A stretch of 40,273 nt of DNA. It comes from a virus. Within the stretch, counting starts at the first letter, position 1. Each line of letters starts with the position of its first letter. A program made the translations under genes and the position numbers. Location of the stretch: positions 1 to 40,273 of the IMG/VR virus record IMGVR_UViG_3300008107_000542; one strand, 5' to 3'. Below the pieces are notes generated by a model that was not told the origin of the DNA, searched no databases, and saw nothing but the letters and a program-made list of their open reading frames with translations. Below, piece by piece: positions 22,491 to 39,494 of the stretch.

Positions 22491-23582
22491 ATGAGCGAGA
22501 TTAGTTCACGTACCGTTGGCCCAAAGGCCGCAAAAAAGAGTCTGCGTCGTGCCTTTAAAGCCAATCGTCCGTTGTTCCTTTGGGGCCCCCCGGGTATTGG
22601 CAAGTCTGATATTGTCAAACAAATGGGCGAGGAACTCGACGCTCATGTAATTGATATCCGTTTGAGTCTTTGGGAACCCACTGACATTAAAGGTATCCCC
22701 TATTTTAATTCTGAGTCCAATCGTATGGAATGGGCTCCTCCTATCGAATTGCCAGATGCAGAGTTGGCAGCAAAACATGACAAGATCATTTTGTTCATGG
22801 ACGAAATGAACTCTGCGGCTCCTGCTGTGCAGGCGGCGGCCTATCAGTTAGTGTTGAATCGTCGTGTTGGTACTTACCGCTTGCCTGACAACGTGCTCAT
22901 CGTTGCCGCAGGTAACCGTGAAACTGACAAAGGTGTTACTTATCGTATGCCTGCTCCGTTGGCTAACCGCTTTGTTCACTTGGAAATGAAAGTAGACTGG
23001 GAAGATTACTTCCAGTGGGCTACTGACAATCGTATCCACAAGGATGTTGTTGGCTTCCTTACTTTCAGCAAGAAAGACCTCTACGACTTTGACCCAAAGG
23101 CTGCTTCACGTGCCTTTGCTACTCCCCGTTCATGGACCTTTGTATCCGAGCTGTTGTTTGATGACGATGAAGACGAAGGCACTTTGACTGACTTGGTAGC
23201 AGGTGCAGTTGGTGAAGGTCTTGCTGTTAAGTTCATGGCTCACCGCAAGATTGCAAGTAAGCTGCCTGATCCTACTCACATCTTAAAAGGCAAGGTAAAG
23301 AAGATGGACACTAAAGAAATTAGTGCCATGTACTCTTTGACTGTTAGCCTATGCTACGAATTGAAAGATTCTGCAGATAAGAATGCCAAAGATTGGAATG
23401 ACCAAGTTAACTACTTCTTCGAATTTATGATGAATAACTTTGAAACTGAATTGGTTGTTATGGGTACTAAACTTGCACTTACTCAATATCAATTGCCTTT
23501 GGATCCAGATGAGATCAAATGCTTTGATGACTTCCATGCCAAATACGGTCGCTTCATTGCTGCCGCTACTGAAAAGCGTTAA
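22491..23582 (+). CDS. MoxR-type AAA+ ATPase
   Basis: A 363-residue AAA+ protein. Walker A is GPPGIGKS (32-39) and Walker B is LFMDE (101-105). 'LPDNVLIVAAGNRE' is the sensor-1 region and 'PAPLANRFVHLEM' an Arg-containing motif. MoxR ATPases act as chaperones that insert cofactors or remodel protein complexes together with a VWA-domain partner. Here that partner is the next gene, 72 bases downstream. The transcript has its own perfect promoter. The target in the phage-infected cell is unknown. Confidence 0.92.
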   Translation: MSEISSRTVGPKAAKKSLRRAFKANRPLFLWGPPGIGKSDIVKQMGEELDAHVIDIRLSLWEPTDIKGIPYFNSESNRMEWAPPIELPDAELAAKHDKIILFMDEMNSAAPAVQAAAYQLVLNRRVGTYRLPDNVLIVAAGNRETDKGVTYRMPAPLANRFVHLEMKVDWEDYFQWATDNRIHKDVVGFLTFSKKDLYDFDPKAASRAFATPRSWTFVSELLFDDDEDEGTLTDLVAGAVGEGLAVKFMAHRKIASKLPDPTHILKGKVKKMDTKEISAMYSLTVSLCYELKDSADKNAKDWNDQVNYFFEFMMNNFETELVVMGTKLALTQYQLPLDPDEIKCFDDFHAKYGRFIAAATEKR

Positions 23583-23599
23583 TTTGGTTGTGGTACCAT

Positions 23600-23628
23600 T
23601 TGACAGGACCTTCGGGTCCTGTTATAAT
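23600..23628 (+). promoter_or_regulatory. Consensus sigma70-type promoter with hairpin in its spacer
   Basis: TTGACA (23600-23605), 17-base spacer, TATAAT (23623-23628). The end of the -35 box and the whole spacer form a perfect 8-base inverted repeat, ACAGGACC (23603-23610) and GGTCCTGT (23615-23622), with a TTCG loop closed by C-G. In read-through RNA from moxR this is a very stable UUCG hairpin. It may limit read-through or mark a 3' end, though no T-run follows. Confidence 0.9.
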
Positions 23629-23654
23629 ATATACTGTATAAACAGGAGCAAATT

Positions 23655-24824
23655 ATGACTCAACTAGATCCAGTTATTGACAAAATTGTAGTAGCCCGTG
23701 TAGGACTGCTACTTCGTCATCCGTTCTTTGGCAACATGGCTACTCGTCTTAAAATTGAGGAAGCCAGTGATTGGTGTATGACTGCCGCTACAGACGGACG
23801 CCACTTGTATTTTAATCGCGAGTTTTTTGAAAAGATGAGCGTTAAAGAAGTTGAGTTCGTAGTAGCTCATGAAATTCTTCACAATGTATTTGAGCATATG
23901 ATGCGAGTTGAAGGACGCGATCCTCGCATTTGGAATGCGGCCGCAGATTATAGTGTTAACGGTACCCTTGTTCGTGATCGCATTGGCGACAGTCCTAAAG
24001 GTATTAAAATTTTCCATGATCCTAAACACTATGGTAAAAGTACAGAACAGATCTATGACGAGATCTATAACGACTTGGACGAGCAAGAACTTGCCGCACT
24101 GGGTCAACTGTTAGACGAACACATTGATTGGGAAAAAGACGGCAAGGATGGTCGCCCACAATACAGCAAAGATGAACTTAAAAAGATCCGTGACGAAATT
24201 AAAGAGCAGATGATGCAGGCTGCTCAGGCAGCGGGTGCAGGAAATACTCCTGCAGAGATCCAACGCATGATCCGCGAATTGACTGAGCCTAAAATGAATT
24301 GGCGTGAAATTCTTCGCCAGCAAATTCAAAGTACTATCAAGAATGACTATACCTTTATGCGTCCTAATCGTAAAGCATGGCACATGAATGCTATTTTGCC
24401 AGGCACTAACTACGATGAAACTATTGACATTTGTATTGCTATTGATATGAGTGGATCAATCGGCGATGACCAAGCTAAAGATTTTATTTCAGAAATCAAA
24501 GGCATTATGGACGAGTACAAAGACTATAAGATTAAACTGTGGTGCTTTGATACCAAAGTCTACAATGAACAAGACTTTGACGGCTACGGCGACGACATTA
24601 TGGAATATGAAGTAATGGGCGGTGGTGGTACTGAATTTGATGCAAACTGGGACTATATGAAAGAGCACGATATCAGTCCTAAAAAGTTTATCATGTTTAC
24701 AGACGGTTATCCTTGGGGTAGCTGGGGTGATGAAAATTACTGTGATACTGTATTCATTATCCATGGCAATGATAAAATTGTACCGCCATTTGGCGCTTAT
24801 GCCTACTACGAGTCAAAAAATTAA
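23655..24824 (+). CDS. VWA-like protein with metallopeptidase-type N-terminal domain
   Basis: A 389-residue protein. The N-terminal part has HEILH (72-76) and the following NAAADYSVNG, typical of the putative zinc peptidase domain in the DUF2201 family. The C-terminal part has a VWA-like domain with the MIDAS motif DMSGS (264-268), a later 'TDGYPW', and 'GGGGTEFDANW', the second MIDAS loop. It is the expected partner of the MoxR ATPase upstream. It has its own promoter and AGGAG Shine-Dalgarno. The pair probably remodels or activates a protein complex; which one is not shown. Confidence 0.88.
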   Translation: MTQLDPVIDKIVVARVGLLLRHPFFGNMATRLKIEEASDWCMTAATDGRHLYFNREFFEKMSVKEVEFVVAHEILHNVFEHMMRVEGRDPRIWNAAADYSVNGTLVRDRIGDSPKGIKIFHDPKHYGKSTEQIYDEIYNDLDEQELAALGQLLDEHIDWEKDGKDGRPQYSKDELKKIRDEIKEQMMQAAQAAGAGNTPAEIQRMIRELTEPKMNWREILRQQIQSTIKNDYTFMRPNRKAWHMNAILPGTNYDETIDICIAIDMSGSIGDDQAKDFISEIKGIMDEYKDYKIKLWCFDTKVYNEQDFDGYGDDIMEYEVMGGGGTEFDANWDYMKEHDISPKKFIMFTDGYPWGSWGDENYCDTVFIIHGNDKIVPPFGAYAYYESKN

Positions 24825-26563: not shown

Positions 26564-27240
26564 AAGTCAGACTCGTTTCATATAGTCAACCTACAGAAGA
26601 ATTTCGCAATCAAAACATCAACGATGCACTAGATCTAGTAGCATTTTGTGCGAGAGTAAGTAATCCTAGTAATCAATTTAACACAGAGACTAGCGAAAAA
26701 CTCATCAAATATTTGATCAAACACCAACATTGGTCGCCACTCGAAATGGTTTCAGTTTGTATTGAAATTGAAACCACTAGAGATATTGCCCGACAAGTTC
26801 TGCGTCATAGAAGTTTTAGCTTCCAAGAGTTTAGTCAACGATATGCGGATCCAACTAAAGAAATTGGCGAAGCATTTACTCTGCGTGAAGCACGTTTTCA
26901 AGATAGTAAAAATCGTCAAAACTCTGTTGAGTTTGACATGCAAGACGAACAACAAAAATTATTGGCCTACGAATGGGAACGTGCTCAGAAGCGTGTTTTA
27001 TATGCTGTAGAAAAAGAATACAAATGGGCTATTGCTAACGGCATTGCTAAAGAACAAGCCCGTGCATTATTGCCCGAAGGTCTTACAATGAGTCGTATGT
27101 ATATGAATGGTACTCTGCGTAGCTGGATGCACTACATTGAATTACGTAGTGCTAATGGTACGCAAAAAGAACATATGGAAATTGCTCAAATTTGCGGTCA
27201 AGTAATTGCAGAAATATTTCCGTTGTCTAAATCACTGTAA
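26560..27240 (+). CDS. thyX: Flavin-dependent thymidylate synthase
   Basis: ThyX makes dTMP from dUMP using FAD and methylenetetrahydrofolate. The RHRX7S signature is intact: RHR at 82-84 and Ser at 92. 'GLTMSRMYMNGTLRSWMHYIELR' is the conserved dUMP-binding region with its Arg residues. 226 residues is a usual length. It provides thymidine for phage replication. It is the last plus-strand gene; its final 43 bases overlap, tail to tail, the end of the minus-strand gene. Confidence 0.95.
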   Translation: MKVRLVSYSQPTEEFRNQNINDALDLVAFCARVSNPSNQFNTETSEKLIKYLIKHQHWSPLEMVSVCIEIETTRDIARQVLRHRSFSFQEFSQRYADPTKEIGEAFTLREARFQDSKNRQNSVEFDMQDEQQKLLAYEWERAQKRVLYAVEKEYKWAIANGIAKEQARALLPEGLTMSRMYMNGTLRSWMHYIELRSANGTQKEHMEIAQICGQVIAEIFPLSKSL

Positions 27241-28127
27241 TGTTGCACATTATCTGATTTTCTAGTTATATTAAAATTAAATGTTTTAAACCATTTACTT
27301 TGAATAGCTGTTAACGGATCATCTATGGGAAGCTCGTGTTTAATGAGGTTCCCAATTTTTTTGGCTAGTTCTAAAGGATCTTCACCTTTAACTCTATCAT
27401 AGAAGAATGCATTGAGATAATCAAAGTTTCGAACATTGATAAAATTCCAATCAGTAAAGTGTGTCATGTAGCAGCCTTGGCGAGCTCCTAGTATACTCCA
27501 AATACCGTGTTCTACATCTGCACCTACCATTGACCAAATACCTAACCTTTGATAATTACCCGGCCATACATCTTTTAAATGTTTGACTCGTTGGCCTTGC
27601 TCTAGACTCATTTTTACACCTTCACGGAATCCTGCTCTCCATGCTTGTAGGGCACTGCCGTTATTGTGTATCTCACTGAAACTTTTATCCAGTGGCAAAT
27701 ATTCTAAATCCCAACAAAAGTCTATTTGACTTTTAACATTGTCAGCGTCAGCAAGTTCGTGTGTACGCATACCTTCTACTACATGTCTTGGCCAACATTT
27801 AATGCCACCATTGCCGTACATGAGTCCGTTGATAACATTATAACTAGGCCAACTGATTACACAATTTTCAAAATTAATATCGTTAGGAACTTCTATTACT
27901 TGATTAAGAAACTTTCCTGTAAGTACATTGTCTCCGTCTATAGTAATAAATCTATCAGTTGTGGATAACTTTGCCGCGGCTTTGTGTGCGGCATCTGAAC
28001 CCTTAACTCCATGTACTCTTTTGGCCCAAGGTATTTTATTACACAAGGCAGCATAGTTACGATCAGCGTTAGGCTCATCGTAACTAATATAGATTACATC
28101 GTATTCACTTACTGTTATTTTTCTCAT
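27198..28127 (-). CDS. Glycosyltransferase-like protein with DGD motif
   Basis: A 309-residue protein. It has 'YDVIYISYDEPNADRNYAAL', 'RVHGVKGSDAAHKAAAKL' and 'DRFITIDGDNVLTG', with DGD at 64-66, the metal/nucleotide-sugar binding pattern of GT-A enzymes. It is closely related to the C-terminal domain of the giant protein next to it. It also has 'INGLMYGNGGIKCWPRHVVE', an element conserved between the two. Acceptor and sugar are unknown. It begins 23 bases inside the end of the upstream gene. Its stop lies inside thyX. Confidence 0.75.
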   Translation of the reverse strand: MRKITVSEYDVIYISYDEPNADRNYAALCNKIPWAKRVHGVKGSDAAHKAAAKLSTTDRFITIDGDNVLTGKFLNQVIEVPNDINFENCVISWPSYNVINGLMYGNGGIKCWPRHVVEGMRTHELADADNVKSQIDFCWDLEYLPLDKSFSEIHNNGSALQAWRAGFREGVKMSLEQGQRVKHLKDVWPGNYQRLGIWSMVGADVEHGIWSILGARQGCYMTHFTDWNFINVRNFDYLNAFFYDRVKGEDPLELAKKIGNLIKHELPIDDPLTAIQSKWFKTFNFNITRKSDNVQHYSDLDNGNISAIT

Positions 28128-31100
28128 TTAAAAATTGCTCGTATAACCAATCAAAGTCATTAATCTTAAATAAGTTCTCTGGATGTTCTGTAGCAAACTT
28201 ACGTCCGGCGAGTGCGCCTTTTATGGCAAATTCACCATAGGGCTTGTCTGCACCTTCTGTACACCATACATTCAAACGTTCTTCAGTTTCTGCATCTACC
28301 TGACGATCAATTGTTTTACCTGCTAGTTTAGCACATTCACGGAATGCTGACTTCCAAGTTGAAAACTCATCTGTGTTAAAAGAAGTTATGTTACTGACCA
28401 CTTGAACAGGTTTAAACTTGTCACTGATACTGGTTGTCATATCGGGACGAGTTACATCCATATCTAATGTAAGTTGTCTAGGCAATAGTTTAACACCACC
28501 GTAACCGTAGACTAGATTATTAACTGGGTTTTGACTGCGCCATACATGTACAGTATCATGTTCCCATACAGGTATTTCATAGTCAAACTTGAAGTCATCA
28601 ACTACAACTGCGTCACCGTCAACTACCCAGAAGTTATCTGTACCTGCCTGTTCGGCTGCTTTGATGTGTGCCTGGTGAATGCCTTTAACTCCATGTACAC
28701 GTTTGACTCTTGGATATAGTGTTTTAACTCTATCAAAGTTTTCGTCAGCATTACTTTCGTTATAACTGATAAACACAATGTCATAGGGTTTAACTTTACT
28801 GGCTGTGATATCCCATTCTTTCTTTTCTACAATATAACGGAATGTGATTTCTTTTTCAGTAATTGGAACATGCTTGCTCATTAAGTTAATACCATTATAG
28901 TTTTCTTCACCTCTAAATAGGTGTTTAAAACTGTGATTCATATTTCTGTCATAGGTATTGTGATGACTAAAATATGTATCAAAGGCAAATGTATCAAGAG
29001 GCTCTACTTCACTAGGTACCATCCAGAACAAGTCAGTAGTTGATTTTTCTAATGCTGTTAGATAATCTCTATATGTAGTTACTGTAAATGTATCATATTT
29101 CTTTGGATAGCTAGCTACTAATTCTATTTCTTTCTTTTCACTAAAGAATCTATACTTAAATTCTTTTTCAGATACTAGTACATCCTTGCTGAACAAACAG
29201 ATACCATCCCAATGTTCTCCGTTTTTAAATATGTGAGTAATGTGTTGATTATATCGTGGAACATAGTAGTCGAAGTCAAAGTCTTCAACTACGTCAACGT
29301 CAGTCCATATACCCCAGAACATATTAGATTCAGATAAATCACATGCTTGAACATAATCTTTGTATGTAGAAATATTGAACTTATCGAACATTTTAGGTCT
29401 ACTAGCCAACTCCATCCATTCTTTGCGATCAGTTAGATATCTAAAATTAAATTCTTTTTCTGAAATAAGTTTTTTCTTACTAGCAAGTATAACTCCGTCA
29501 TAGGTATCACCGTTTTTAAATACGTGATTTTCTTCTCTATCGTAACTGTTATGATAGCTAAAATAAAGATCAAAGTTAAACCCATTGACAATTTCAACAT
29601 CGTTAGGTACTATCCAGAACAAATCAGTATTTGAAGTTTCAACAGCATTGAGATATTCTGAATACTTGTTAATATAGAATATGTCATACGGTTTAGGAGT
29701 ACTAGCTACTAATTCTATTTCTTTCTTTTCACTAAAGAATCTATAATTAAATTCTCGTTCAGTAACTAACTCATGTTTTGACATCAAGCATATACCGTCC
29801 CAGTGCTCGTCATTTTTAAATACGTGAGTGATGTGTTGATTGTAACGTGGAACATAGGTGTCGCCATTGAGGAACATATGATTTTCTTCTCTATCGTAAC
29901 TGTTATGATAGCTAAAATAAAGATCAAATTTAAATTCGTCAACTGTAATAACATCGCTAGGAACTATATAAAATAAATCTGTAAGAGATTCGTCTACTGC
30001 ATTTAAATATTCATCATAACTGTCAATATAAAATATATCATACTGTTTAGGATAACTTGCTACGTAGTCAATTTCTTTCTTTTCAGTAAAGAATCTATAT
30101 TTGAATTCTCGTTCACTTACAGGTAAATGTTTACTGAATAAACAGATACCATCAAAATGATCACCGTTCTTAAAAATGTGCGTAATGTGTTGATTATATT
30201 TAGGCACATAGTAATTAAAATCAAAGTCTTCAACTACATCAACATCATGCCATACGCACCAGAACATGTTGCTGTTAGATTCCTTACAGGCATTAAGATA
30301 TTGTTCGTATGTTTTAATGTAAAATTTATCAAAGAGTTGAGGTCTACTTACAAGTATATCCCACTCTTTTCTTTCATTTAAAAATCTGTAAGTAAATTCT
30401 CGTTCACTTATTGGTGTAGACTTGCTGGCTAAAATAACACCATCATATGTGTCACCGTTGAGAAACATATGATTTTCTTGGCGGCTGTATGTATCATGAT
30501 GACTAAAATATAAATCAAATTTGTAGTCATTGACCACTACAACATCATTTGGTATTAACCAGAATAGATCTGTAGTCGCAGATTGTGCAGCATCTACGTA
30601 TTCTTCGTATGTGTTAACATAGAATATGTCATAATTTTTAGGATAGCTAATAGTATAATCAACTTCTTTTTTATCAGTAAAGAATCTATATTTGAATTCT
30701 CGTTCGCTTACTTTATTATACTTGCTAAACAGGCAGACACCGTCCCAGTGCTCGCCATTTTTAAATACATGAGTGATATGTTGATTGTAACGTGGAACGT
30801 AGTAGTCAAAGTCAAAGTCTTCAACTACATTAACATCCGGCCATACACACCAAAACATACTTGTTTTAGATTGTTCACAGGCTGTGAGATATTCTTCAAA
30901 AGAATTAATATACCATACTTCAAACTTAACTGGAGAACTGGCAAGTATCTCTTCTTCTTTTCTATCTATGATAAACTTATTAGTAATTTCTTTCTGTGAA
31001 ATTTCTATATATTTGCTTACTAAAAAAATACCATCATAGTAATCGCCATTTAACAACGCATGATTTTCATATCGTGTACATTGTACATTAAATTTAAAAT

Positions 31101-32733
31101 CTTCCAATACGTTAACATCGCTTGGAATCATATAAAACATGTCTGTTGTTGTCTGTGTTTTAGCTTCTAAATATTGCTCGTATGTGTCTACAATAAATTT
31201 ATCATATGGTTTAGGATAACTTGCTATGTAATCTACTTCTTTCTTTTCATTGAAGAATCTATACTTAAATTCTTTTTTGCTAATTTGATAATGCTTGCTG
31301 AACAAACATACGCCATCTAGATACTCGCCGTTTTTAAACACATGAGTTATATGTTGATTATAACGAGGAACATAATAATCAAATTCAAAATCTTCAACTA
31401 CATTAACATCAGTCCATATAGCCCAGAACATACCTGTTGTAGATTTCTCCACTGCTGTTAGATAATCATTGTATGTAGTAATTTCAAATTTATCAAACGC
31501 TGTTGGCATACTGGCTAATTCATCGTGTTCTTTTCTATTGATAACAAACCATGAATTGAATTCTTTTTTGCTAATTTCCTGTTCTCTAGGAGTTAGCATA
31601 ATGCCGTCATAAAAATCACCGTTTCTAAACACATGATTGATAGTTCTATTATATGTGTCATGATGTGTGTAGTATAGGTCAAGTTTAAAATTGTCTAATA
31701 TTTTTAGACTGGATGGTACTATCCAGAACATGTCAGTTGTTGAGTTATCTATAGCTTCTAGATATTCTTCGTAGGTATCTATGTTGAACTTATCGTAGGG
31801 TTTAGGATAACTGGCTACGTAGTCAACTTCTTTCTTTTCATTAAAGAACCTATACTTAAATTCTTTATCACTTACTTTATTATGCTTGCTGAACAGGCAA
31901 AGTCCATCGTAGTGATCACCGTTCTTAAAAATGTGCGTAATGTGTTGATTATAACGAGGTGCATAATAATCAAAGGTAAAATCTTCTACAATTTCTATAT
32001 CATACCAAACACCCCAGAACATATCTGTTGTTGATTGATCACAGGCAGATAGATAATCTTCGTAGGTCTTAATATTAAACTTTTCAAATTCTTTAGGTCG
32101 ACTGGCAAGAATTTCCCACTCTTTTCGATCGCTTAAAAATCTATATTTGAACTCTCGTTCGCTTATTGGTTTAAATTTCGACGCTAGTATAATACCATCA
32201 TAGGTGTCACCGTTGAGAAACATATGATTTTCTTGTCTCTCGTAACTGTTATGGTGACTGAAATACAGATCAAACTTAAACTCGTCAACAACATCAACAT
32301 CGCTAGGCACTAACCAAAACAAATCAGTAGTTGAATTTTCTAATGCTTCGCAATATTCTTCATATGTGTCTACATAAAAAATATCGTAGCGTTTAGGACA
32401 ACTTGCTACTAAATCAATTTCTTTTTTATCAGTGAAAAATCTATATTTTAATTCTCTGTCACTAATATACTTGTGACGAGGGATCAAAGACAATCCATCA
32501 AAATATTCGTTATTTTTAAAAATATGCACATATTCTTCATCCCATTTAGGAATTGAATACGAAGAAAAATCAAAATCTTCTTTTAATTCTATATCGTCCC
32601 ATACTGTCCAGAACATAGCAGTAAGGGCTTTTGATTTAGCTTCGTCAAAATTTTTGGCTTTTTTAGCAAACGGATATTTTGATTTGATAGTTTTCCAGTT
32701 TGGATTGTTTCCAATAACAAAAATATCGTACAT
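28105..32733 (-). CDS. Giant tandem-unit protein of degenerate glycosyltransferase-like modules
   Basis: A 1542-residue protein. A longer first unit (1-114) is followed by tandem units of 94-118 residues (115-1315) and a C-terminal domain (1316-1542) related to the neighbouring glycosyltransferase. Units alternate between two types. Type A carries a 'FW.VPSDV...F.FDLYFSHH' core and NGDTYDG; type B carries 'FWCVWPDV' and DYYVPRYNQHITH. The C-terminal domain keeps the DGD motif (1372-1374, in WVVDGDAVVVDDF); in the repeats the same position reads VPSD or VWPD. The repeats therefore look like catalytically dead copies of the same fold. Unit 9 is an A/B hybrid. No signal peptide. Possible roles are glycan binding, a scaffold, or a multi-site transferase; none is shown. 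Confidence 0.85.
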   Translation of the reverse strand: MYDIFVIGNNPNWKTIKSKYPFAKKAKNFDEAKSKALTAMFWTVWDDIELKEDFDFSSYSIPKWDEEYVHIFKNNEYFDGLSLIPRHKYISDRELKYRFFTDKKEIDLVASCPKRYDIFYVDTYEEYCEALENSTTDLFWLVPSDVDVVDEFKFDLYFSHHNSYERQENHMFLNGDTYDGIILASKFKPISEREFKYRFLSDRKEWEILASRPKEFEKFNIKTYEDYLSACDQSTTDMFWGVWYDIEIVEDFTFDYYAPRYNQHITHIFKNGDHYDGLCLFSKHNKVSDKEFKYRFFNEKKEVDYVASYPKPYDKFNIDTYEEYLEAIDNSTTDMFWIVPSSLKILDNFKLDLYYTHHDTYNRTINHVFRNGDFYDGIMLTPREQEISKKEFNSWFVINRKEHDELASMPTAFDKFEITTYNDYLTAVEKSTTGMFWAIWTDVNVVEDFEFDYYVPRYNQHITHVFKNGEYLDGVCLFSKHYQISKKEFKYRFFNEKKEVDYIASYPKPYDKFIVDTYEQYLEAKTQTTTDMFYMIPSDVNVLEDFKFNVQCTRYENHALLNGDYYDGIFLVSKYIEISQKEITNKFIIDRKEEEILASSPVKFEVWYINSFEEYLTACEQSKTSMFWCVWPDVNVVEDFDFDYYVPRYNQHITHVFKNGEHWDGVCLFSKYNKVSEREFKYRFFTDKKEVDYTISYPKNYDIFYVNTYEEYVDAAQSATTDLFWLIPNDVVVVNDYKFDLYFSHHDTYSRQENHMFLNGDTYDGVILASKSTPISEREFTYRFLNERKEWDILVSRPQLFDKFYIKTYEQYLNACKESNSNMFWCVWHDVDVVEDFDFNYYVPKYNQHITHIFKNGDHFDGICLFSKHLPVSEREFKYRFFTEKKEIDYVASYPKQYDIFYIDSYDEYLNAVDESLTDLFYIVPSDVITVDEFKFDLYFSYHNSYDREENHMFLNGDTYVPRYNQHITHVFKNDEHWDGICLMSKHELVTEREFNYRFFSEKKEIELVASTPKPYDIFYINKYSEYLNAVETSNTDLFWIVPNDVEIVNGFNFDLYFSYHNSYDREENHVFKNGDTYDGVILASKKKLISEKEFNFRYLTDRKEWMELASRPKMFDKFNISTYKDYVQACDLSESNMFWGIWTDVDVVEDFDFDYYVPRYNQHITHIFKNGEHWDGICLFSKDVLVSEKEFKYRFFSEKKEIELVASYPKKYDTFTVTTYRDYLTALEKSTTDLFWMVPSEVEPLDTFAFDTYFSHHNTYDRNMNHSFKHLFRGEENYNGINLMSKHVPITEKEITFRYIVEKKEWDITASKVKPYDIVFISYNESNADENFDRVKTLYPRVKRVHGVKGIHQAHIKAAEQAGTDNFWVVDGDAVVVDDFKFDYEIPVWEHDTVHVWRSQNPVNNLVYGYGGVKLLPRQLTLDMDVTRPDMTTSISDKFKPVQVVSNITSFNTDEFSTWKSAFRECAKLAGKTIDRQVDAETEERLNVWCTEGADKPYGEFAIKGALAGRKFATEHPENLFKINDFDWLYEQFLNEKNNSK
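28800..32400 (-). repeat. Tandem ~300-base coding repeats
   Basis: About twelve units of 282-312 bases (one hybrid of 354), alternating A and B, in frame within the giant gene. Type B units share near-identical DNA around the TATAATCAACACAT-like segment (for example near 29240, 29835, 30190, 30780, 31345 and 31945). This leaves much room for recombination. Confidence 0.9.
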
Positions 32734-32739
32734 ATCATT

Positions 32740-33354
32740 CTACCAGGTAATAAACTTATATAGCTCTTTTGCGTAGAGCTCGTGAGGTTTTCCTCCATGA
32801 TGCCAATACTGCGCCAGTGAGTTTTGATGTCCTTCTCTCACATACTTGGGATAAAAGGCATTGTAAGAATTATCAAAGTCCATGTAACGGGATCCGTCTA
32901 TTAATTTTAAGTAAAAGTCAGTCCATCGATCTCTTTTAGCAAAGTGCATAGTATTACACATGACATAAGGAATGTCCATTGACTTAAAATAAGATTGCAT
33001 TTGGTGAGCAAGATTTAAACTTTGTATTTCTAAATATGATTGATTTGATGCCATGAACTTTTGATAGAATGGTATTATACGTTTTTCCCAATCAGCGTTT
33101 CCGTTAAATCCAGGATTTAATCTATAGAATACATTATTAGTGTTTCCAAACCAAGAGTTAGTTTCAGATATAATGTATTTTGTTCCTAGCTCTGAAGGTA
33201 TTTCCATACGTATACTTTCAGTCCATGCAACGCATATAAACAAATCCATAGTTGATACGTCATATTCTTTATGCAACCATTCTAGTACAGACCTAGCTAT
33301 AGTAGGATTAGCCGATCCCGGAGACGAAATATTAATAGGTCTACGACCCAACAT
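32740..33354 (-). CDS. SGNH-hydrolase-like protein, damaged 5' end
   Basis: From the first canonical start (ATG 33354) 204 residues. Blocks 'PINISSPGSANPTIARSVLEWL' and 'DLFICVAWTESIRMEIP' resemble blocks II and III of SGNH-type esterases found in phages. The same frame stays open upstream to 33438 without ATG, GTG or TTG and encodes SHAAGSEIDGKLDSDFNRNNSFG, which looks like the catalytic block I (GDSHxxG). A TGA precedes it. The normal start therefore seems lost, and the upstream gene also ends early here. If only the internal ATG is used, the catalytic Ser is missing. Possible role: esterase acting on surface sugars. Confidence 0.6.
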   Translation of the reverse strand: MLGRRPINISSPGSANPTIARSVLEWLHKEYDVSTMDLFICVAWTESIRMEIPSELGTKYIISETNSWFGNTNNVFYRLNPGFNGNADWEKRIIPFYQKFMASNQSYLEIQSLNLAHQMQSYFKSMDIPYVMCNTMHFAKRDRWTDFYLKLIDGSRYMDFDNSYNAFYPKYVREGHQNSLAQYWHHGGKPHELYAKELYKFITW

Positions 33355-33413
33355 ACTTGCTAATAAGTTCCCGAATGAGTTATTTCTGTTAAAATCAGAA
33401 TCTAATTTTCCAT

Positions 33414-34514
33414 CTATTTCTGAGCCGGCTGCATGACTTCATAACTTTCGTCCCAAAAATCTGAAAATGTTTTAAAGCCCATTCTTTTAGCATATTCTAT
33501 AGTATGAGGAGGTGCTACTAATATAAAAGGACGCTTATATCTTATGGCTTGATATAATTTTTCGCTGTAATTACCACAATGCTGTGCAAATCTTGTTTCA
33601 TTAATTACATCACAAAAACTATCATTGTAAAAATTTTCTAATGGATTTAATCTAGGATTATTAATTGCAGGAGTTTCATAGATAGTATAATCATCTGTCA
33701 CTGGATAATGAGATGCTGTATTATCAGTTATTTCTACTAAAGCTTTAGCTTTGATATCTAAACATACTGGAGAATGATAATTTAAAATTTCTAATCCAGA
33801 GTTAAGTTGATCATATAGTTCTTTATTTGTTTTTTTCCATTGATGTAGAGGAAAAAATAAATCATGTGAAAATGCTTGGTTATTACAATTAAAATACCAA
33901 CTGTAGTTAGAAGAAACTGTTGATAAGAATGCAGTAATTAGATGACGATGTTTTGTGTATCGCCAATTTACACAAATAAATTTTTTAGTAAATTTGTTAT
34001 TAGGAAAACTCTCAAATAAAGAATAATTTTTTAAAAATAGATCATTTGTTACTAACTTCATCATCTTTGTATAATGTGGATGATAGTGAGCTGCTTTGTA
34101 ATCACAGGTATTTACTATTACTTTTTTTAAACCATTACGTGTAATATATTCTTTAATACTTTCTAACTCATCAGCTCGCATTTCTTGTACATTTGTTTCA
34201 AAAGGAAATTCACTGTAAAATCCTCTGTTGTGATGATACTGTTCTTTACGAGAACAAATAGGTTCGTATAAGAAAAAATGCAAACCTAAATTATTCATAA
34301 TTGATATGTCGTCAATACTATGACTGATATTTTTTAATCCCGTTAATTCTCCGTTACCCATGTAAACAAACACAGGCACATGAGGAGCCAGGCCTGAAGA
34401 ATTTCTAACCTGCTTCATAAAAAGATTTGCATCTGTTTCAGCGCGGTTTGACATGCCCGGAATATTAAACCAATGTAGTTGTGTTAATTCGTGCTCAGGG
34501 GGGCTAGTAATCAA
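33414..34514 (-). CDS. Putative glycosyltransferase (paralogue 1)
   Basis: A 366-residue protein. 'KKFICVNWRYTKHRHLITAFL' and the C-terminal 'NYSEKLYQAIRYKRPFILVAPPHTIEYAKRMGFKTFSDFWDESYE' are shared with the minus-strand gene at 38639-39494. The latter block resembles the donor-binding part of GT10-type fucosyltransferases (E.....TEK.Y.A......P). Only 8 residues follow DESYE, against more than 50 in the paralogue, so the C-terminus may be cut short. It overlaps the downstream end of the oxygenase-like gene by four bases. Confidence 0.65.
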   Translation of the reverse strand: MITSPPEHELTQLHWFNIPGMSNRAETDANLFMKQVRNSSGLAPHVPVFVYMGNGELTGLKNISHSIDDISIMNNLGLHFFLYEPICSRKEQYHHNRGFYSEFPFETNVQEMRADELESIKEYITRNGLKKVIVNTCDYKAAHYHPHYTKMMKLVTNDLFLKNYSLFESFPNNKFTKKFICVNWRYTKHRHLITAFLSTVSSNYSWYFNCNNQAFSHDLFFPLHQWKKTNKELYDQLNSGLEILNYHSPVCLDIKAKALVEITDNTASHYPVTDDYTIYETPAINNPRLNPLENFYNDSFCDVINETRFAQHCGNYSEKLYQAIRYKRPFILVAPPHTIEYAKRMGFKTFSDFWDESYEVMQPAQK

Positions 34515-35011
34515 AGCAGTTCTCCTGTAATCTGAAGTGTATATCTATCTTCTACTCCTATATTACTAGCTGCATGAGGAACATCATATTGCCAGAAAAA
34601 ATAGTCGCCTGCTTTCCAATTTACATAGCCAACATCTGCTATTTCTAAATAATGTCCGGGTTGCCAATCTTCTAACATAATTAAAACTCTACAGACATTT
34701 GTTGGAACTGCATTAAACAATTTAGTATAAGTTCTAAAATGGTCAGTATGAGTAGGCATTATTTCTAGGGTACTCATTTTATAAAAATTATATGTTTGAT
34801 TTTTTAAACCAAATATATTGTTAAACTTTTCTACCCAACTTGGCAATGGGTTTTTACTGTCATACATTGATCCTGTAAAACTTTTTATACAGTCATAACC
34901 TTTTTCTTTCCACTGGGCAATTTCTTGTTCAGTTACTGGTTGTTTAACGTAAGAAAAAGTCCTATAACTTTTATCCCAAAAAGGATTAACATGTCCAGTA
35001 TAAAAGTTCAT
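34511..35011 (-). CDS. 2-oxoglutarate/Fe(II) oxygenase-like (double-stranded beta helix) protein
   Basis: A 166-residue protein. The iron ligands HxD...H are visible as His88 and Asp90 in MPTHTDHF and His146 in DVPHAASN; Arg156 (RYTLQITG) could hold 2-oxoglutarate. The region between, 'RVLIMLEDWQPGHYLEI', fits the central strands. It resembles aspartyl/asparaginyl hydroxylase-type folds. Substrate is unknown; its neighbours suggest a small molecule or sugar. It overlaps both neighbours by four bases. Confidence 0.7.
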   Translation of the reverse strand: MNFYTGHVNPFWDKSYRTFSYVKQPVTEQEIAQWKEKGYDCIKSFTGSMYDSKNPLPSWVEKFNNIFGLKNQTYNFYKMSTLEIMPTHTDHFRTYTKLFNAVPTNVCRVLIMLEDWQPGHYLEIADVGYVNWKAGDYFFWQYDVPHAASNIGVEDRYTLQITGELL

Positions 35012-35985
35012 GTATGCTTCCTTTGTATGTCAAGGGTGACACAATGAAAGCCTCCACCTAATGTACGCTGTTGCCTCATTGGTAGCATTGCACATTCAAT
35101 ACCATATTTTTCTAATTCTTTACGTAGGTTGTGTTGATTTTCTTCTAATGCAACTAGATTAGGATTAACACTGAACAAATTCATATTAATCCATGTGCTA
35201 GCATTACAGTAACCAGGATAATGTCCAATATCAATAGGTTCAGGACACCATATGTAGTCCCATGACTGTAATGGTTTAGGTAACTGATCAATACTTTTAA
35301 TCCTAGCAGGATTTAACAACATTAGGCCTTCGCGAAGTAACCCGATAGTACTGTCTAAATGCATATAACTATACACACCTTCGATAGTCCAAACTTTGTT
35401 ATTAGGCAGTAACTCTTGTAGATACTCAGCGCCTTGCTTGTTGCCACTGTTACTGACTAGATAGTATAAATTATCATTGTCTCTTAAAATGTTAGCTGCA
35501 TCAAAAGCTGGCTCAGTCTCGTTAAGTGCTAGTGTGTTAGGATCTCCAAGACATTTTAAATTATATAAATCTTCGTCATGCGAACATCTAGCAATCGTTA
35601 CAACATAGTTGTTTTCAAAATGTTCTTGCAGGGCAAAATATTCATTGTGTCTTGCTTTTAATGGTTGAGGTGTTGATAAAATTAATTTATCATGTACTAA
35701 CACTCCGTCTCTAGGACAATAGTTATAGTAATTAGGAACAACATTTTTGTTTGGTCTTAATACAGTTACTCCGCAGGATTTTAAAAAAACAACAAATTTT
35801 TCTAAATCTTCATTGGCTTCATCAATAACTTGTTGTGGATAAGGTCCTACTGGAATTTCGTTGACATCTTTTACATCTGCATAATTAACAGTTCTTAAAC
35901 TAATATCGACGGAAGGTATTTTAGCATCGTCTGCAATACCAACTATAACTGTTTCTAATGGATCCCATTCATTTTTACTTAACAT
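35008..35985 (-). CDS. Glycine/inosamine amidinotransferase family protein
   Basis: A 325-residue protein of the pentein fold. The catalytic triad is visible: Asp162 in PAFDAANILR, His209 in SYMHLDST, Cys315 in LGGGFHCVTLD. Such enzymes move an amidino group from arginine to an amine, as in creatine precursor or streptomycin (StrB) synthesis. Length is a little below AGAT (about 420) and near StrB. It sits with an aminotransferase-like and a radical SAM gene, as in aminosugar or aminocyclitol pathways. A guanidino-sugar for a surface glycan is an inference. It overlaps the next upstream gene by 11 bases. Confidence 0.85.
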   Translation of the reverse strand: MLSKNEWDPLETVIVGIADDAKIPSVDISLRTVNYADVKDVNEIPVGPYPQQVIDEANEDLEKFVVFLKSCGVTVLRPNKNVVPNYYNYCPRDGVLVHDKLILSTPQPLKARHNEYFALQEHFENNYVVTIARCSHDEDLYNLKCLGDPNTLALNETEPAFDAANILRDNDNLYYLVSNSGNKQGAEYLQELLPNNKVWTIEGVYSYMHLDSTIGLLREGLMLLNPARIKSIDQLPKPLQSWDYIWCPEPIDIGHYPGYCNASTWINMNLFSVNPNLVALEENQHNLRKELEKYGIECAMLPMRQQRTLGGGFHCVTLDIQRKHT

Positions 35986-36565
35986 TGAACACCTTCATTT
36001 TTGATATATCAGGATAATCTGCATTACTCCATTTTTTTGGAGTTAAATCTTTTACTTGATTGAATTTTTCTATACCTAGCTCTGCTGTTTCAGGAGTCAT
36101 ATAATAATGATAACCAAACATATCAACGTCCTGTTCTTTCCAAGGCATGTCTTGAAGTCGACCGTCATAACTCATTTTTTTAAGAGTCTGCGCAGAAGAA
36201 TAATTATCAGTAAGAATAATTCCGCCTCGTCCTAGGTTAAGATGTTTTTTATATTGGAAACTTAAACACATAAATGTATCCGGCACGTAGCTGTTTTCTT
36301 TCCATAAAACTGCTGCATCAATAACATTAGTATTACCAATAAAATAATAGTCTTGCCATATTGAGTCTGCAAATTCCCAGGACAAGCCTAATTTTTCAAA
36401 TGTCATTGGTATAGACAGATAGGTATGTGTAGGACAGGTTACTAACCTAGGATTTATATGTCGTAGACAAAGTTCTATAGCGTGTGTACAACTATCGGTT
36501 GCAACAGCATATTTAGAACCAAAATATTTTGCAATGGTGTTTTCAAAGTTAACTATTGGGGACAT
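35975..36565 (-). CDS. Short DegT/DnrJ/EryC1-type aminotransferase-like protein
   Basis: A 196-residue protein. 'FENTIAKYFGSKYAVATDSCTHAIELCLRH' is the N-terminal signature of PLP sugar aminotransferases, and 'LSFQYKKHLNLGRGGIILTD' is the region with the PLP-binding Lys (106/107). It is about half the usual length (370), lacking most of the C-terminal domain. It may be a compact phage form, as several neighbours are, or incomplete. In sugar pathways it would add an amino group for the amidinotransferase. It overlaps the radical SAM gene by 17 bases. Confidence 0.7.
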   Translation of the reverse strand: MSPIVNFENTIAKYFGSKYAVATDSCTHAIELCLRHINPRLVTCPTHTYLSIPMTFEKLGLSWEFADSIWQDYYFIGNTNVIDAAVLWKENSYVPDTFMCLSFQYKKHLNLGRGGIILTDNYSSAQTLKKMSYDGRLQDMPWKEQDVDMFGYHYYMTPETAELGIEKFNQVKDLTPKKWSNADYPDISKMKVFNVK

Positions 36566-38069
36566 TTTCTTTTATGTTCTTAATACTAGAGATTGGAATT
36601 ACTACATTAGAGTGCATTGCTGCCTTTTCAGGAATAGCTTCCATTTTTGAAATATTTGGAACTTCTACTTCGTACTCTTTAAAATTACCCCAATGACCTT
36701 GGCCTCTATATCTATACTGAAAGGTAAAATCTATTGTGTTATTTAAAATTCTTTCTTCTTCTAAAAGAACATTAAAGTCGTCACCACTTCTGCCAGCTTC
36801 AACATCCCATGTTGGTTTAGCTAACTTCCTTGCTCGCTTTGCAGTATTACTCATCATGCGACTATAATCCTGAGCATAGAATGGTCCTTTACGACCTCTA
36901 GGCGGAGGCTCTCTTTCGTCGTAGGGATTATCAATTTGATCAAATTTGTATTTAAAATCAGCAGTCCATTGACCGTCATCTGAAATTTTAAATTTAAATA
37001 ATGCGTTATACATTCCTGGACCGTATTGGGTTCCAAATTCTTTTAGATCAATTGTGGGATTAAATAAAATTTCAGCTTCATACCCGCCTCGAGTTTTCCA
37101 TAGCATACGGAAAAATGGCCACATCTCATTTACTAGTGCATCAGCAAAAGGATTAAGATTAGGTTTAATTATATTGTAATCAAACTTTTCATATTCAATT
37201 TCTTTTATAAGGTATGGATTGTTTAATTGTATTTTATAGTGCTCTTTAGCTAGATTAAATCTTACAGGGTATCCAAAAGGTACTTCAGTACATCCCGTCA
37301 TTAAATCTAGGAACATATGGAGTGTCTTTACTCTGGTCATAACATGTGTACCACCTTTGGTAAAATCACTAGTGATCCAATGTCCTTGATATTTTTGTGC
37401 GCTGATATTAAACTTATGTGTATTCTGCCCAACAATAGTTTCCGGTCCTAGACCGTAGCCTACACCGGCGCCAACATTGTTGATATTCATGTCACGCATA
37501 CGCCACAACAGAGTCATGCTATCAGCAAAGTCTTGTAGCGTTTCTGTAGGGAATCCTACGATCCAGTTTGTAGCAGCATAGATACCAACTTCCTTACCAT
37601 CGCGGAAGTTCTGTTCCATTTCTGCAATAGTAACACCTTTGGCCATGTCGTCTAATACGCTTTGACTGCCGCTTTCAATACCGTAGTTTAGCATAATGCA
37701 GCCTCCGGCTTTTAGATCTTTAAAATACTCTAGATCCATGCGGCCATCACAACGAGCATAACCTGTCCAATTAATTTTAAGACCTTTAGCTTCAACTGCT
37801 TTACAAAATGCACGTAGTTCTTTTAAATTGCCGTTAACAAGACTATCAATGAACCAAATAACATCAACACCTTTATTGTAGTAAAGCCATTCTATTTCAG
37901 AAATAAGATCGACTGACTGACGCTGACGATATTTCCAAAAGTGTGTTTCTTCGCAGAATGTACATTTAGCTGTACAACCTCGACTAATTTCTGTGTTAAC
38001 ACCGTTGGGTAGATCGTAAAGACTAAAGTCATATGCGGTGCTCTGCGCTTTAATTCTTGCGCCATCCAC
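36549..38069 (-). CDS. Radical SAM protein (catalytic half of a B12-binding radical SAM pair)
   Basis: A 506-residue protein. The [4Fe-4S] motif CTAKCTFC is at 32-39, and 'NYGIESGSQSVLDDMAKG' and 'ATNWIVGFPTETLQDF' are typical of the B12-dependent radical SAM family. The C-terminal 200 residues are less conserved. The first codon (GTG 38069) follows no clear Shine-Dalgarno. The frame continues upstream as 'YQRRTYKVDGARIK', overlapping the end of the B12-binding gene in another frame. The two were probably one protein, and about 100 residues seem missing between the domains. Substrate unknown. Confidence 0.8.
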   Translation of the reverse strand: MDGARIKAQSTAYDFSLYDLPNGVNTEISRGCTAKCTFCEETHFWKYRQRQSVDLISEIEWLYYNKGVDVIWFIDSLVNGNLKELRAFCKAVEAKGLKINWTGYARCDGRMDLEYFKDLKAGGCIMLNYGIESGSQSVLDDMAKGVTIAEMEQNFRDGKEVGIYAATNWIVGFPTETLQDFADSMTLLWRMRDMNINNVGAGVGYGLGPETIVGQNTHKFNISAQKYQGHWITSDFTKGGTHVMTRVKTLHMFLDLMTGCTEVPFGYPVRFNLAKEHYKIQLNNPYLIKEIEYEKFDYNIIKPNLNPFADALVNEMWPFFRMLWKTRGGYEAEILFNPTIDLKEFGTQYGPGMYNALFKFKISDDGQWTADFKYKFDQIDNPYDEREPPPRGRKGPFYAQDYSRMMSNTAKRARKLAKPTWDVEAGRSGDDFNVLLEEERILNNTIDFTFQYRYRGQGHWGNFKEYEVEVPNISKMEAIPEKAAMHSNVVIPISSIKNIKENVPNS

Positions 38070-38587
38070 TTTGTAGGTTCTTCGCTGATATAGTACATAG
38101 AAAACCCTACTACTTGAGGATTCATTTCTATTATTTCTTGTATTGCCTGTTCAAGAATTGGTTCTAATACAGGATGTATGTCTTTCATATAGGTTTCACC
38201 TAGCCAGTGCCAACTGGCTGCAGGATCCCATAGTCTAAATGGTAGTTTGTTGTTAGGGATCCAATCTTCTTGATGGGCACGATATGCCTTAACATTAAGA
38301 TCCATAATAAGAGTTTCATATCCTGCACTCTTGGCTACACCACTTAATCTAGCAAGACTAAATGGCGGCATATAAGGACTCCATTCTGGACATAATACCA
38401 ATACTAGTTTAGTGTTTCTAGTTTTGTAGTCTACATAAACAGGAGTGAGATTTTTCTGTACTGTTGGTTTTGCATAGGGAGCAATCGCCTTCATCATAGA
38501 CATATGACGTGCGTCTGCTAGATCTTCTGGCGGCTTTTCGGGGAGGACTACTTCTTTTTTAGCAAGTCCTTGTAGATTAAAATCCAA
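37892..38587 (-). CDS. B12-binding domain protein (N-terminal half, out-of-frame tail)
   Basis: A 231-residue protein. 'LVLCPEWSPYMPPFSLARLSGVAKSAGYETLIMDLN' is the start of a B12-binding-type Rossmann domain. 'NPQVVGFSMYYISEEPTKW' is a later strand. From about residue 170 the sequence is the radical SAM region read in the wrong frame, so this tail is probably not native. The usual GGP and GE elements at the end of the domain are missing. Start TTG 38587 has AGGAG (38599-38595) seven bases ahead and a late-type promoter box, so expression looks real. Confidence 0.65.
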   Translation of the reverse strand: MDFNLQGLAKKEVVLPEKPPEDLADARHMSMMKAIAPYAKPTVQKNLTPVYVDYKTRNTKLVLVLCPEWSPYMPPFSLARLSGVAKSAGYETLIMDLNVKAYRAHQEDWIPNNKLPFRLWDPAASWHWLGETYMKDIHPVLEPILEQAIQEIIEMNPQVVGFSMYYISEEPTKWMAQELKRRAPHMTLVFTIYPTVLTQKLVEVVQLNVHSAKKHTFGNIVSVSQSILFLK

Positions 38588-38605
38588 TATAATTCTCCTA
38601 TCAAA

Positions 38606-38613
38606 TATTTAAC
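38606..38613 (-). promoter_or_regulatory. T4-like late promoter variant (minus strand)
   Basis: Reading the minus strand: GTTAAATA, inside a 17-base match (16 identical) to the segment around the plus-strand late promoter at 1777-1793. It lies 18 bases before the TTG 38587 start and overlaps its Shine-Dalgarno region, so the radical SAM operon is probably late. Confidence 0.5.
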
Positions 38614-38638
38614 AGTTTTAATTTTAACCGTTTTTTTT

Positions 38639-39148
38639 CTAAACTCCGGTCTGATCTAAACGATACTGAGTTTTTTCCATTAATACTCGATAATTATGAT
38701 CAAGGATATCTTTGATATCCGTCTGCCATTTAATCCAATGATCATCTGTAAAATCACATAGACGTAGGACTTCTTTCCAAATCATTTCTAATCTTAAATG
38801 ATCGTCAAGTTCACTGTCATAACTTTCGTCAATCAAAGGACTAAAAGTTTTATATCCTAGCTTTTTTAAATACTGTAAAGAAAATGGTCTTGATGCTAAA
38901 ATAAAAGGGTGCTTTAGTGCGATTGGTCTAAATGTTTTTTCTGTTAAAAATACAGAATCTCCGGCATCTATAAACGGAAAAAAATCATTATGGTCTTGAA
39001 AAAATAAAGTTTCAGTAACTAAACTAAAATAACTATCGCTGTGATAAGTTAAATCTTCAAGTCTTACATCAATTGGATTGTATCGATCGTCTGGTACATT
39101 AAGACGTAAGGGAAATATATCTTGATATCTCGTGAACAATTTCCACAT
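38639..39148 (-). CDS. Putative glycosyltransferase (paralogue 2), 3' fragment
   Basis: 169 residues from the first ATG (39148), but the frame is open upstream to 39328 and includes 'KLFCCLNKQLREHRARIFYKILDD', matching the KKFICVNWRYTKHRH region of the paralogue at 33414-34514. 'FLTEKTFRPIALKHPFILASRPFSLQYLKKLGYKTFSPLIDESYD' is the conserved C-terminal block. The true protein begins in the fragment at 39303-39494 and is broken at an A8 run. It may be rescued by transcript slippage. GT10-like donor binding is an inference. Confidence 0.6.
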   Translation of the reverse strand: MWKLFTRYQDIFPLRLNVPDDRYNPIDVRLEDLTYHSDSYFSLVTETLFFQDHNDFFPFIDAGDSVFLTEKTFRPIALKHPFILASRPFSLQYLKKLGYKTFSPLIDESYDSELDDHLRLEMIWKEVLRLCDFTDDHWIKWQTDIKDILDHNYRVLMEKTQYRLDQTGV

Positions 39149-39302
39149 TCTTTTGTACTCCGACAGTCCTGATAATCGTTGTATTACATCTAGACCGTAT
39201 TCAAAAGATGAGTAAGTTTTTTCTAAAAAATTGTCGTCAAGTATTTTATAAAAAATACGTGCTCGATGTTCTCTTAACTGTTTGTTAAGACAGCAAAATA
39301 AT

Positions 39303-39494
39303 TTAGATTTTTTTTGAATGAGCTGAAGTTAGATATACATAGGAAACACTATAATCATTTATCTGTCTAATAATTCGATGAATTTTTCTTATATGATCAA
39401 AATAAACTGCTTCGTTTATATTGTCAAATAGAATTATTTTATAACCGTCTTTAATTGCTGCTTTAATAGAATCTGTTATTGGCTCTGTATCCAT
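39303..39494 (-). pseudogene. Putative glycosyltransferase (paralogue 2), 5' fragment
   Basis: 63 residues from ATG 39494; the frame is open to 39635 without ATG, GTG or TTG, adding 'TFYVYAGTYSHCSFPKM' and similar. It ends at 39303 just after the A8 run (39308-39315). Removing one A joins it directly to the frame of the 3' fragment as 'LTSAHSKKSKLFCCLNKQ'. Both fragments therefore belong to one gene. The lack of a normal start adjoins an A10 run at the end of the upstream dehydrogenase gene. Confidence 0.6.

Follow-up and report, generated by a model that had tools for sequence, protein, structure and literature searches.

The gene described here lies on the minus strand of a 40,273-nucleotide stretch of viral DNA (positions 1 to 40,273 of the IMG/VR record IMGVR_UViG_3300008107_000542), referred to below as the window. 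The window is part of a virus record of 67,697 bases, which encodes a DNA polymerase (phrog_262). The gene product is a giant protein consisting of tandem units followed by a C-terminal domain, here termed beta, and the neighbouring gene encodes a protein termed alpha. The features are:

28105..32733, minus strand: whole ORF of 1542 aa with an ATG start, comprising a first unit, 12 further units and a C-terminal domain predicted to be of the GT-A type
32389..32733, minus strand: first unit (aa 1-115), longer than the others, with more of the N-terminal part kept and without DxD
30043..32388, minus strand: units 2-9 (aa 116-897), in which VP.. and VW.D/IW.D types alternate
29689..30042, minus strand: unit 10 (aa 898-1015), chimeric, with its junction at 29853-29857
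28786..29688, minus strand: units 11-13 (aa 1016-1316), covered by a structure model
28108..28785, minus strand: C-terminal beta domain (aa 1317-1542), a predicted GT-A glycosyltransferase with the motif VDGDA
27198..28127, minus strand: alpha, 309 aa, with the motif IDGDN, a separate gene that shares 23 bp with the giant gene
32740..39328, minus strand: same-strand neighbours, among them a DegT-type aminotransferase, a B12-binding radical SAM protein and others without a family match

The units following the first are of about 97 aa each. The FW/FY cores of the protein are found at residues 40, 138, 238, 335, 435, 532 and 626 (units 1-7), 723, 823, 920, 1038, 1138 and 1235 (units 8-13) and 1367 (the C-terminal domain), at a spacing of 94-100 residues and, once, 118. 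These positions bear out the first-pass annotation, made from the window alone, in its count of one longer unit and twelve more. That annotation had also assigned the Asp-Gly-Asp motif to the last domain alone and, indeed, among all the domains of the giant protein only the C-terminal one carries it after the core, the units reading VW.D/IW.D or [VI]P.[DSE] at this position. The kinship that it proposed between the C-terminal domain and alpha is reflected in 34% identity (E 2.5e-28), and the alternation that it described of two unit types holds across units 2-9 and is lost at units 10 and 11.

In unit 10 the front part is that of a VPSD-type unit and runs straight into the middle part of a VW.D-type unit. 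Three related loci (L001, L084 and L086) come from the same virus, with at least 99.58% identity to the window in two blocks spanning the giant gene and 98.7% in the lowest long block (from 39319), and within unit 10 they carry 240 bp extra, which yields a regular array of 14 units; the same count recurs in L002 and L003. Compared with near-identical contigs, the window contig is also without 210, 217 and 152 bp at 33438, 38030 and 39319, sites at which the ORFs of L086 are longer (428 and 250 aa, 758 aa, and 382 aa, respectively, stop to stop). Since one contig shows four such short losses and the L086 ORFs are longer, the chimeric tenth unit is probably an assembly fault, with a genuine deletion as the alternative, and these comparisons suggest that the fuller version of the giant gene probably has 14 units. 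Such losses are not peculiar to the window contig, as L084 is without 118 bp near 37800 that are present in the window; short losses relative to L005 are also found in L007 and L008. The unit counts given below derive from single metagenome contigs, some with short deletions (the window, L007 and L008), and are therefore subject to some error.

A structure model of units 11-13 together with beta, built from an 84-row alignment, has a mean pLDDT of 91.3 and a pTM of 0.74. Its top Foldseek match in the PDB is the K4 chondroitin polymerase K4CP (E 7.3e-6), and other GT-A enzymes among the matches are SunS, ThuS, WrtF and polypeptide GalNAc-transferases. VIA comparison of this model gave Z values up to 11.4 (B4GALNT1, rmsd 2.7, 137 aligned), the rows falling mostly on model residues 299-463, i.e. 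on beta. The DxD motif is present in 30 of 30 beta domains of alignment A2 and in 152 of 152 N-complete beta ORFs, including 54 unit-bearing ones (some of the 152 are the same gene in overlapping loci, and 88 are left once collapsed), and an FRE stretch is also conserved. Modelling thus predicts that beta is a DxD-bearing glycosyltransferase of the GT-A fold, and we infer that it is active as such.

The units are related to this domain. An HMM of the window's own units scores the C-terminal domain at 33.5 bits, and with a broader unit HMM all of 30 beta domains reach 26.4-42.3 bits, against a maximum of 12.6 bits in a shuffle control (5455 sequences scored of 6000 made). The first-pass annotation had read the protein as a serially duplicated GT-A-like core with the catalytic motif in the last copy only, and had named profile-profile comparison of the units with the C-terminal domain as one test that could refute this. 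In hhalign the two gave a probability of 98.2 and an E value of 4.2e-14 (a pairwise profile-profile value, with no database behind it) over 60 columns, with FW-core placed on FW-core. By profile, then, the units are homologous to the beta GT-A domain. Chance repetition as the source of the array was ruled out by the regular cores, the 14-unit relatives and the shuffle control.

A model of units 2 and 3 alone, from an 88-row alignment, reached a pLDDT of 95.1. In a plain Foldseek search its best match was not significant (E 0.22), the top matches being galactosyltransferases, and in VIA 47 of 50 rows were glycosyltransferases or nucleotidyltransferases, as judged from the titles or from the known identity of the enzyme (the titles of the other three, 3d5n, 2e8b and 2waw, being uninformative). 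The VIA values (Z 4.7-6.5, rmsd 2.5-3.4, 88-100 residues aligned) are in a range, Z below 8, that may signify a common arrangement only; nearly all the rows match a single unit, spread over roughly 160-350 target residues, and absence of a fold from these lists carries no weight. Thus, of the modelling proposed earlier as a check, the C-terminal domain came out as GT-A and the pair of adjacent units matched GT-A-type folds at the level of these values, which are weak when taken by themselves; together with the profile result, the GT-A-type matches support the reading of a duplicated GT-A-like core. By our reading of the DSSP strings, the order of elements is strand-helix-strand-helix-strand(DxD) in beta and strand-helix-strand in a unit. 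The models suggest that the units are without one helix-strand of the donor half, after the first strand, and without the C-terminal helices of beta, and so represent about half a GT-A domain. These C-terminal helices could also serve the acceptor, and their absence from the units speaks against an acceptor-binding role of the array.

Residue counts cover 203 units, drawn from 131 distinct ORFs that contain beta. None of the 201 aligned units has the first Asp of DxD, its position being occupied by W (102), P (55), S (22), Y (8), T (4), R (4), H (3) and, once each, A, C and F, with a gap in 2; at the second DxD position 119 of the 203 have Asp. The units possess nearly invariant residues of their own, namely H, G and L (each in 202/203), E (201/203) and S (196/203).

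Matches to the beta family among contigs of uncultivated viruses number at least 583, the best 80 of which were kept. The loci were fetched by alpha, giant-protein or beta queries; they are not a random sample, and arrays without a nearby beta may have been missed. Among 127 N-complete distinct beta ORFs, 87 have no units, while 6 have one, 5 two, 9 three, 8 four and 4 five, and the larger arrays number six units (1 ORF), seven (1), thirteen (2), fourteen (2) and sixteen (2). The earlier suggestion that the number of units is open to change is therefore well founded, relatives carrying 0-7, 13, 14 or 16 of them. Collapsing to 88 representatives left 56 without units, 32 with units and 19 fused to alpha, and 33 of the 78 loci new to the beta-query scan were unit-bearing. 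In 42 of the 127 ORFs beta is preceded, in the same chain, by a relative of alpha; units and a fused alpha were found together in none of the 127 (nor in any of the 88), and either is always N-terminal of beta. At the loci examined, contig faults and ends excepted, arrays lie in the beta ORF or directly before it, as at L113 and L138, where a separate array ORF overlaps an ORF of one unit plus beta. The three-unit protein of L102 carries a twitch radical SAM domain in the same chain, and L101, which has no unit, has by sequence the same 413-residue extension. That beta stands without units in so many ORFs indicates that it can fulfil its basic role without the array.

With respect to the origin of the units, first units retain more of the N-terminal part than internal ones; they score a median of 38.5 bits with the beta profile (n=44, some of them from truncated or split ORFs) and internal units 19.5 bits (n=159), and the beta profile is preferred to that of alpha by 43 of the 44 first units and by all 159 internal units. 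Derivation from alpha is disfavoured by the latter result, and on these scores the units would stem from beta rather than from the 309-aa alpha. Unit relationships were judged from identity matrices. In three pairwise comparisons of arrays, first unit best matches first and last best matches last; internal units of distant pairs match several of their own type, and in the close pair L001-L005 10 of 12 keep their order. The repeat period is two in L001, and in L009 and L010 the blocks are mostly of three units and some of four.

It might be supposed that the array is decaying duplication debris with no role, given the lost DxD and the variable number of units. We regard this as highly improbable. 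The dN/dS of units is 0.063 between L001 and L005 (11 pairs) and 0.056 between L009 and L010 (7 pairs), and 0.04-0.13 within proteins, dS being near saturation or undefined for most of the unit pairs; beta (0.042-0.070, four pairs) and alpha (0.060-0.084, two pairs) were compared in the same way. A value of about 0.06 marks the units as constrained protein and not debris and, although dS is near saturation, suggests that the array is kept by purifying selection. The frames, moreover, stay open for up to 1855 aa (stop to stop), and the fold is modelled with high confidence.

Upstream of the giant gene, on the same strand, are a DegT-type aminotransferase (PF01041) and a B12-binding radical SAM protein, read off the L086 copy. 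Several genes in 32740..39328 are shortened or split by the deletions in the window contig. We take the gene at 35008-35985 to be amidinotransferase-like and that at 34511-35011 to be 2OG-oxygenase-like; family searches of these two gave nothing above cut-off. Three radical SAM proteins of the twitch type, above cut-off, are encoded farther upstream, beyond the window, as are tail and structural proteins. A general operon of beta with twitch radical SAM was considered and is not claimed, since, of the 73 loci of 12 kb or longer, only 11 had the motif close to beta. The setting resembles the variable host-recognition region described for pelagimyophages, which has tail fibres, glycosyltransferases and radical SAM cassettes, and for which modification of the host O-chain has been proposed (PMC7029224). 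The same record contains several radical SAM genes alongside tail and structural proteins, as does the pelagimyophage region as described (PMC7029224), and this would suit an array that is a spacer or fibre distancing beta, or a virion component, the fold being reused as a rod. This we consider unlikely, in view of the near-invariant residues that the units hold and of the location of the arrays in or directly before beta ORFs.

Our current working hypothesis, to which we give a probability of roughly 0.45, is that beta is a phage glycosyltransferase placed behind tandem, degenerate, half-size GT-A modules that hold its acceptor or its partners. An N-terminal copy of beta would have lost catalysis, the first unit having the look of an intermediate; the inactive copy would then have shrunk to a module of about 97 aa, and this module would have been multiplied two to four units at a time. 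Deprived of donor-side parts, the modules may hold the acceptor, which could be a glycosylated protein or else a glycan, growing or repetitive; alternatively they may hold partner enzymes such as alpha, and either would lend beta avidity or processivity. The surrounding gene cluster would then make an unusual glycan, to be borne on the host surface or the virion. It is the near-invariant H, G, L, E and S of the units, together with the parts of GT-A that seem to be kept, that point to a putative binding role. A more specific version, which we hold to be less likely than not, is that the minimal pseudo-GT-A module is a repeat building block in its own right, amplified by phages to as many as 16 copies that together bind an acceptor glycan of repetitive structure, the number of modules setting processivity or specificity of the terminal glycosyltransferase; if true, this would define a class of carbohydrate-binding or length-measuring arrays built from a transferase fold.

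It is also possible, if less than probable, that the array is a scaffold or intramolecular chaperone, which docks beta, alpha and cluster enzymes or aids folding in a COSMC-like manner. COSMC is described as having neither DxD, xED nor activity and as serving as scaffold and chaperone (PMC7185993). In keeping with such a role, alpha is also present in 24 of the 33 loci of at least 12 kb in the beta-query set, and arrays can be proteins of their own, as in the overlapping ORFs of L113 and L138. A scaffold role alone, however, leaves arrays of 13-16 units unexplained, and unit-free beta is common. In our analysis a COSMC-like scaffold would be the main rival to an acceptor- or partner-binding array, and the two appear inseparable on present evidence.

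At the thresholds used, no convincing Pfam, NCBIfam, PHROG or isolate-phage family was found for the giant protein. The window proteins have no listing for Pfam Glycos_transf_2 (PF00535, cut-off 23.3 bits), to which three fused relatives score 13.1-18.4 bits, under the cut-off; Phosphonate-bd, Nudix_hydro and Coatomer were rejected for the giant protein, all being under their cut-offs. NCBIfam gave no match at E 0.1 for the giant protein or alpha. Among PHROG matches phrog_16219 (function unknown; E 0.0023 over aa 1280-1355), which was followed by seven weaker matches, may be a remote relative of the giant protein. Searches of isolate phages by tblastn, in a set that may omit records close to the window's genome, found no match for the giant protein (1e-5), alpha (1e-3) or the fused protein of L021 (1e-2) and a single insignificant one (E 2) for the L137 protein at E 10; for L102, only the radical SAM part was matched among the matches listed (17 records). 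Among PDB sequences alpha had two matches to GT25 chains (E 0.8), and the beta and unit profiles had none at E of 1 or below. In bacterial and archaeal genomes, relatives of beta are encoded at 7 of 61 pattern matches, no clear array accompanying any of them, and matches to the unit profile fall within beta, bar one at E 1.8. No comparable pseudo-glycosyltransferase array came up in the literature searched. The beta family, with its many viral contig matches and neither a curated family nor an isolate match at these thresholds, thus points to a little-explored phage glycosylation system, in which the natural variants of 0-16 units offer a ready series on what pseudo-enzyme modules do.

The best Foldseek matches to the units-plus-beta model in BFVD are two uncharacterized proteins of uncultured Caudovirales phage, A0A6J5LK21 (E 5.3e-33) and A0A6J5L5L5 (E 4.4e-31), at 19% identity. 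The S-glycosyltransferases SunS and ThuS and the fucosyltransferase WrtF are close in GT-A fold to beta and, weakly, to the units, a likeness that does not in itself indicate a common function, and none of them is known to have an array. Beta can also be compared with the two-domain GT-A polymerases K4CP and heparosan synthase PmHS2, in that beta models as GT-A with K4CP as its top structural match and that an alpha relative and beta are paired in one chain in the fused ORFs; in the window, by contrast, alpha and beta are separate genes, and K4CP is not known to have an array of reduced units. COSMC (C1GALT1C1, an inactive GT31 that serves T-synthase) is a separate single protein, whereas the units are tandem half-size modules of one chain. 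The resemblance is that COSMC is described as a GT-A homologue that has lost DxD and is partnered with an active relative (PMC7185993). Against the GT-A common core of 231 aligned positions, eight strands and six helices given by Taujale et al. (2020; PMC7185993), beta has the DxD and the fold, while the units have about 97 residues and are missing the first Asp, which suggests that the GT-A fold can be reduced to about half its size, far under that core as defined there, and then amplified in tandem. The array may thus be seen as a variation on known pseudo-glycosyltransferases and multi-domain glycosyltransferases.

The predicted GT-A glycosyltransferase domain that closes the giant protein (beta) is found elsewhere in other arrangements, including fusion to a twitch radical SAM domain and an array of tandem degenerate GT-A-like units in an ORF apart from beta, as follows.

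L102:8899-11790, fusion of a twitch radical SAM domain to a beta that has three units
L101:6415-8346, the same fusion with zero units, recognized by sequence likeness to L102
L113:4413-5711, array-only ORF overlapping an ORF for beta with one unit
L138:4362-5720, array-only ORF overlapping an ORF for beta with one unit

The last two loci belong to two diverged viruses. Proteins in which beta is fused to its relative alpha (L011, L035, L061 and others) carry C-terminal extensions of 170-663 aa, for which no clear function was found in the few scanned. Beyond the window, the same virus record encodes three consecutive twitch-domain radical SAM proteins, each scoring above the NCBIfam cut-off, and a fourth, more distant one (all within L188:2377-7196); an adjoining 216-aa ORF appears, by eye, to resemble part of an alpha-type protein.

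Comparison with two contigs of the same virus, L084 and L086, revealed four short losses in the window.

29857, 240 bp missing
33438, 210 bp missing
38030, 217 bp missing
39319, 152 bp missing

These losses, which cut short or split several window ORFs, are probably assembly faults; L084 itself lacks 118 bp near 37800. Also in the window, 22491-24824 encodes an AAA ATPase whose best match is MoxR-like (PF07726), and the product of the following gene looks, on inspection of its sequence, like a VWA-type partner.

Beta is also encoded, without the array, in contigs L183-L187, titled Bdellovibrionales, Oligoflexia, Bacteriovoracaceae and Mucilaginibacter. The gene order in L184 is alpha, then beta, then a protein that to the eye resembles a radical SAM protein.
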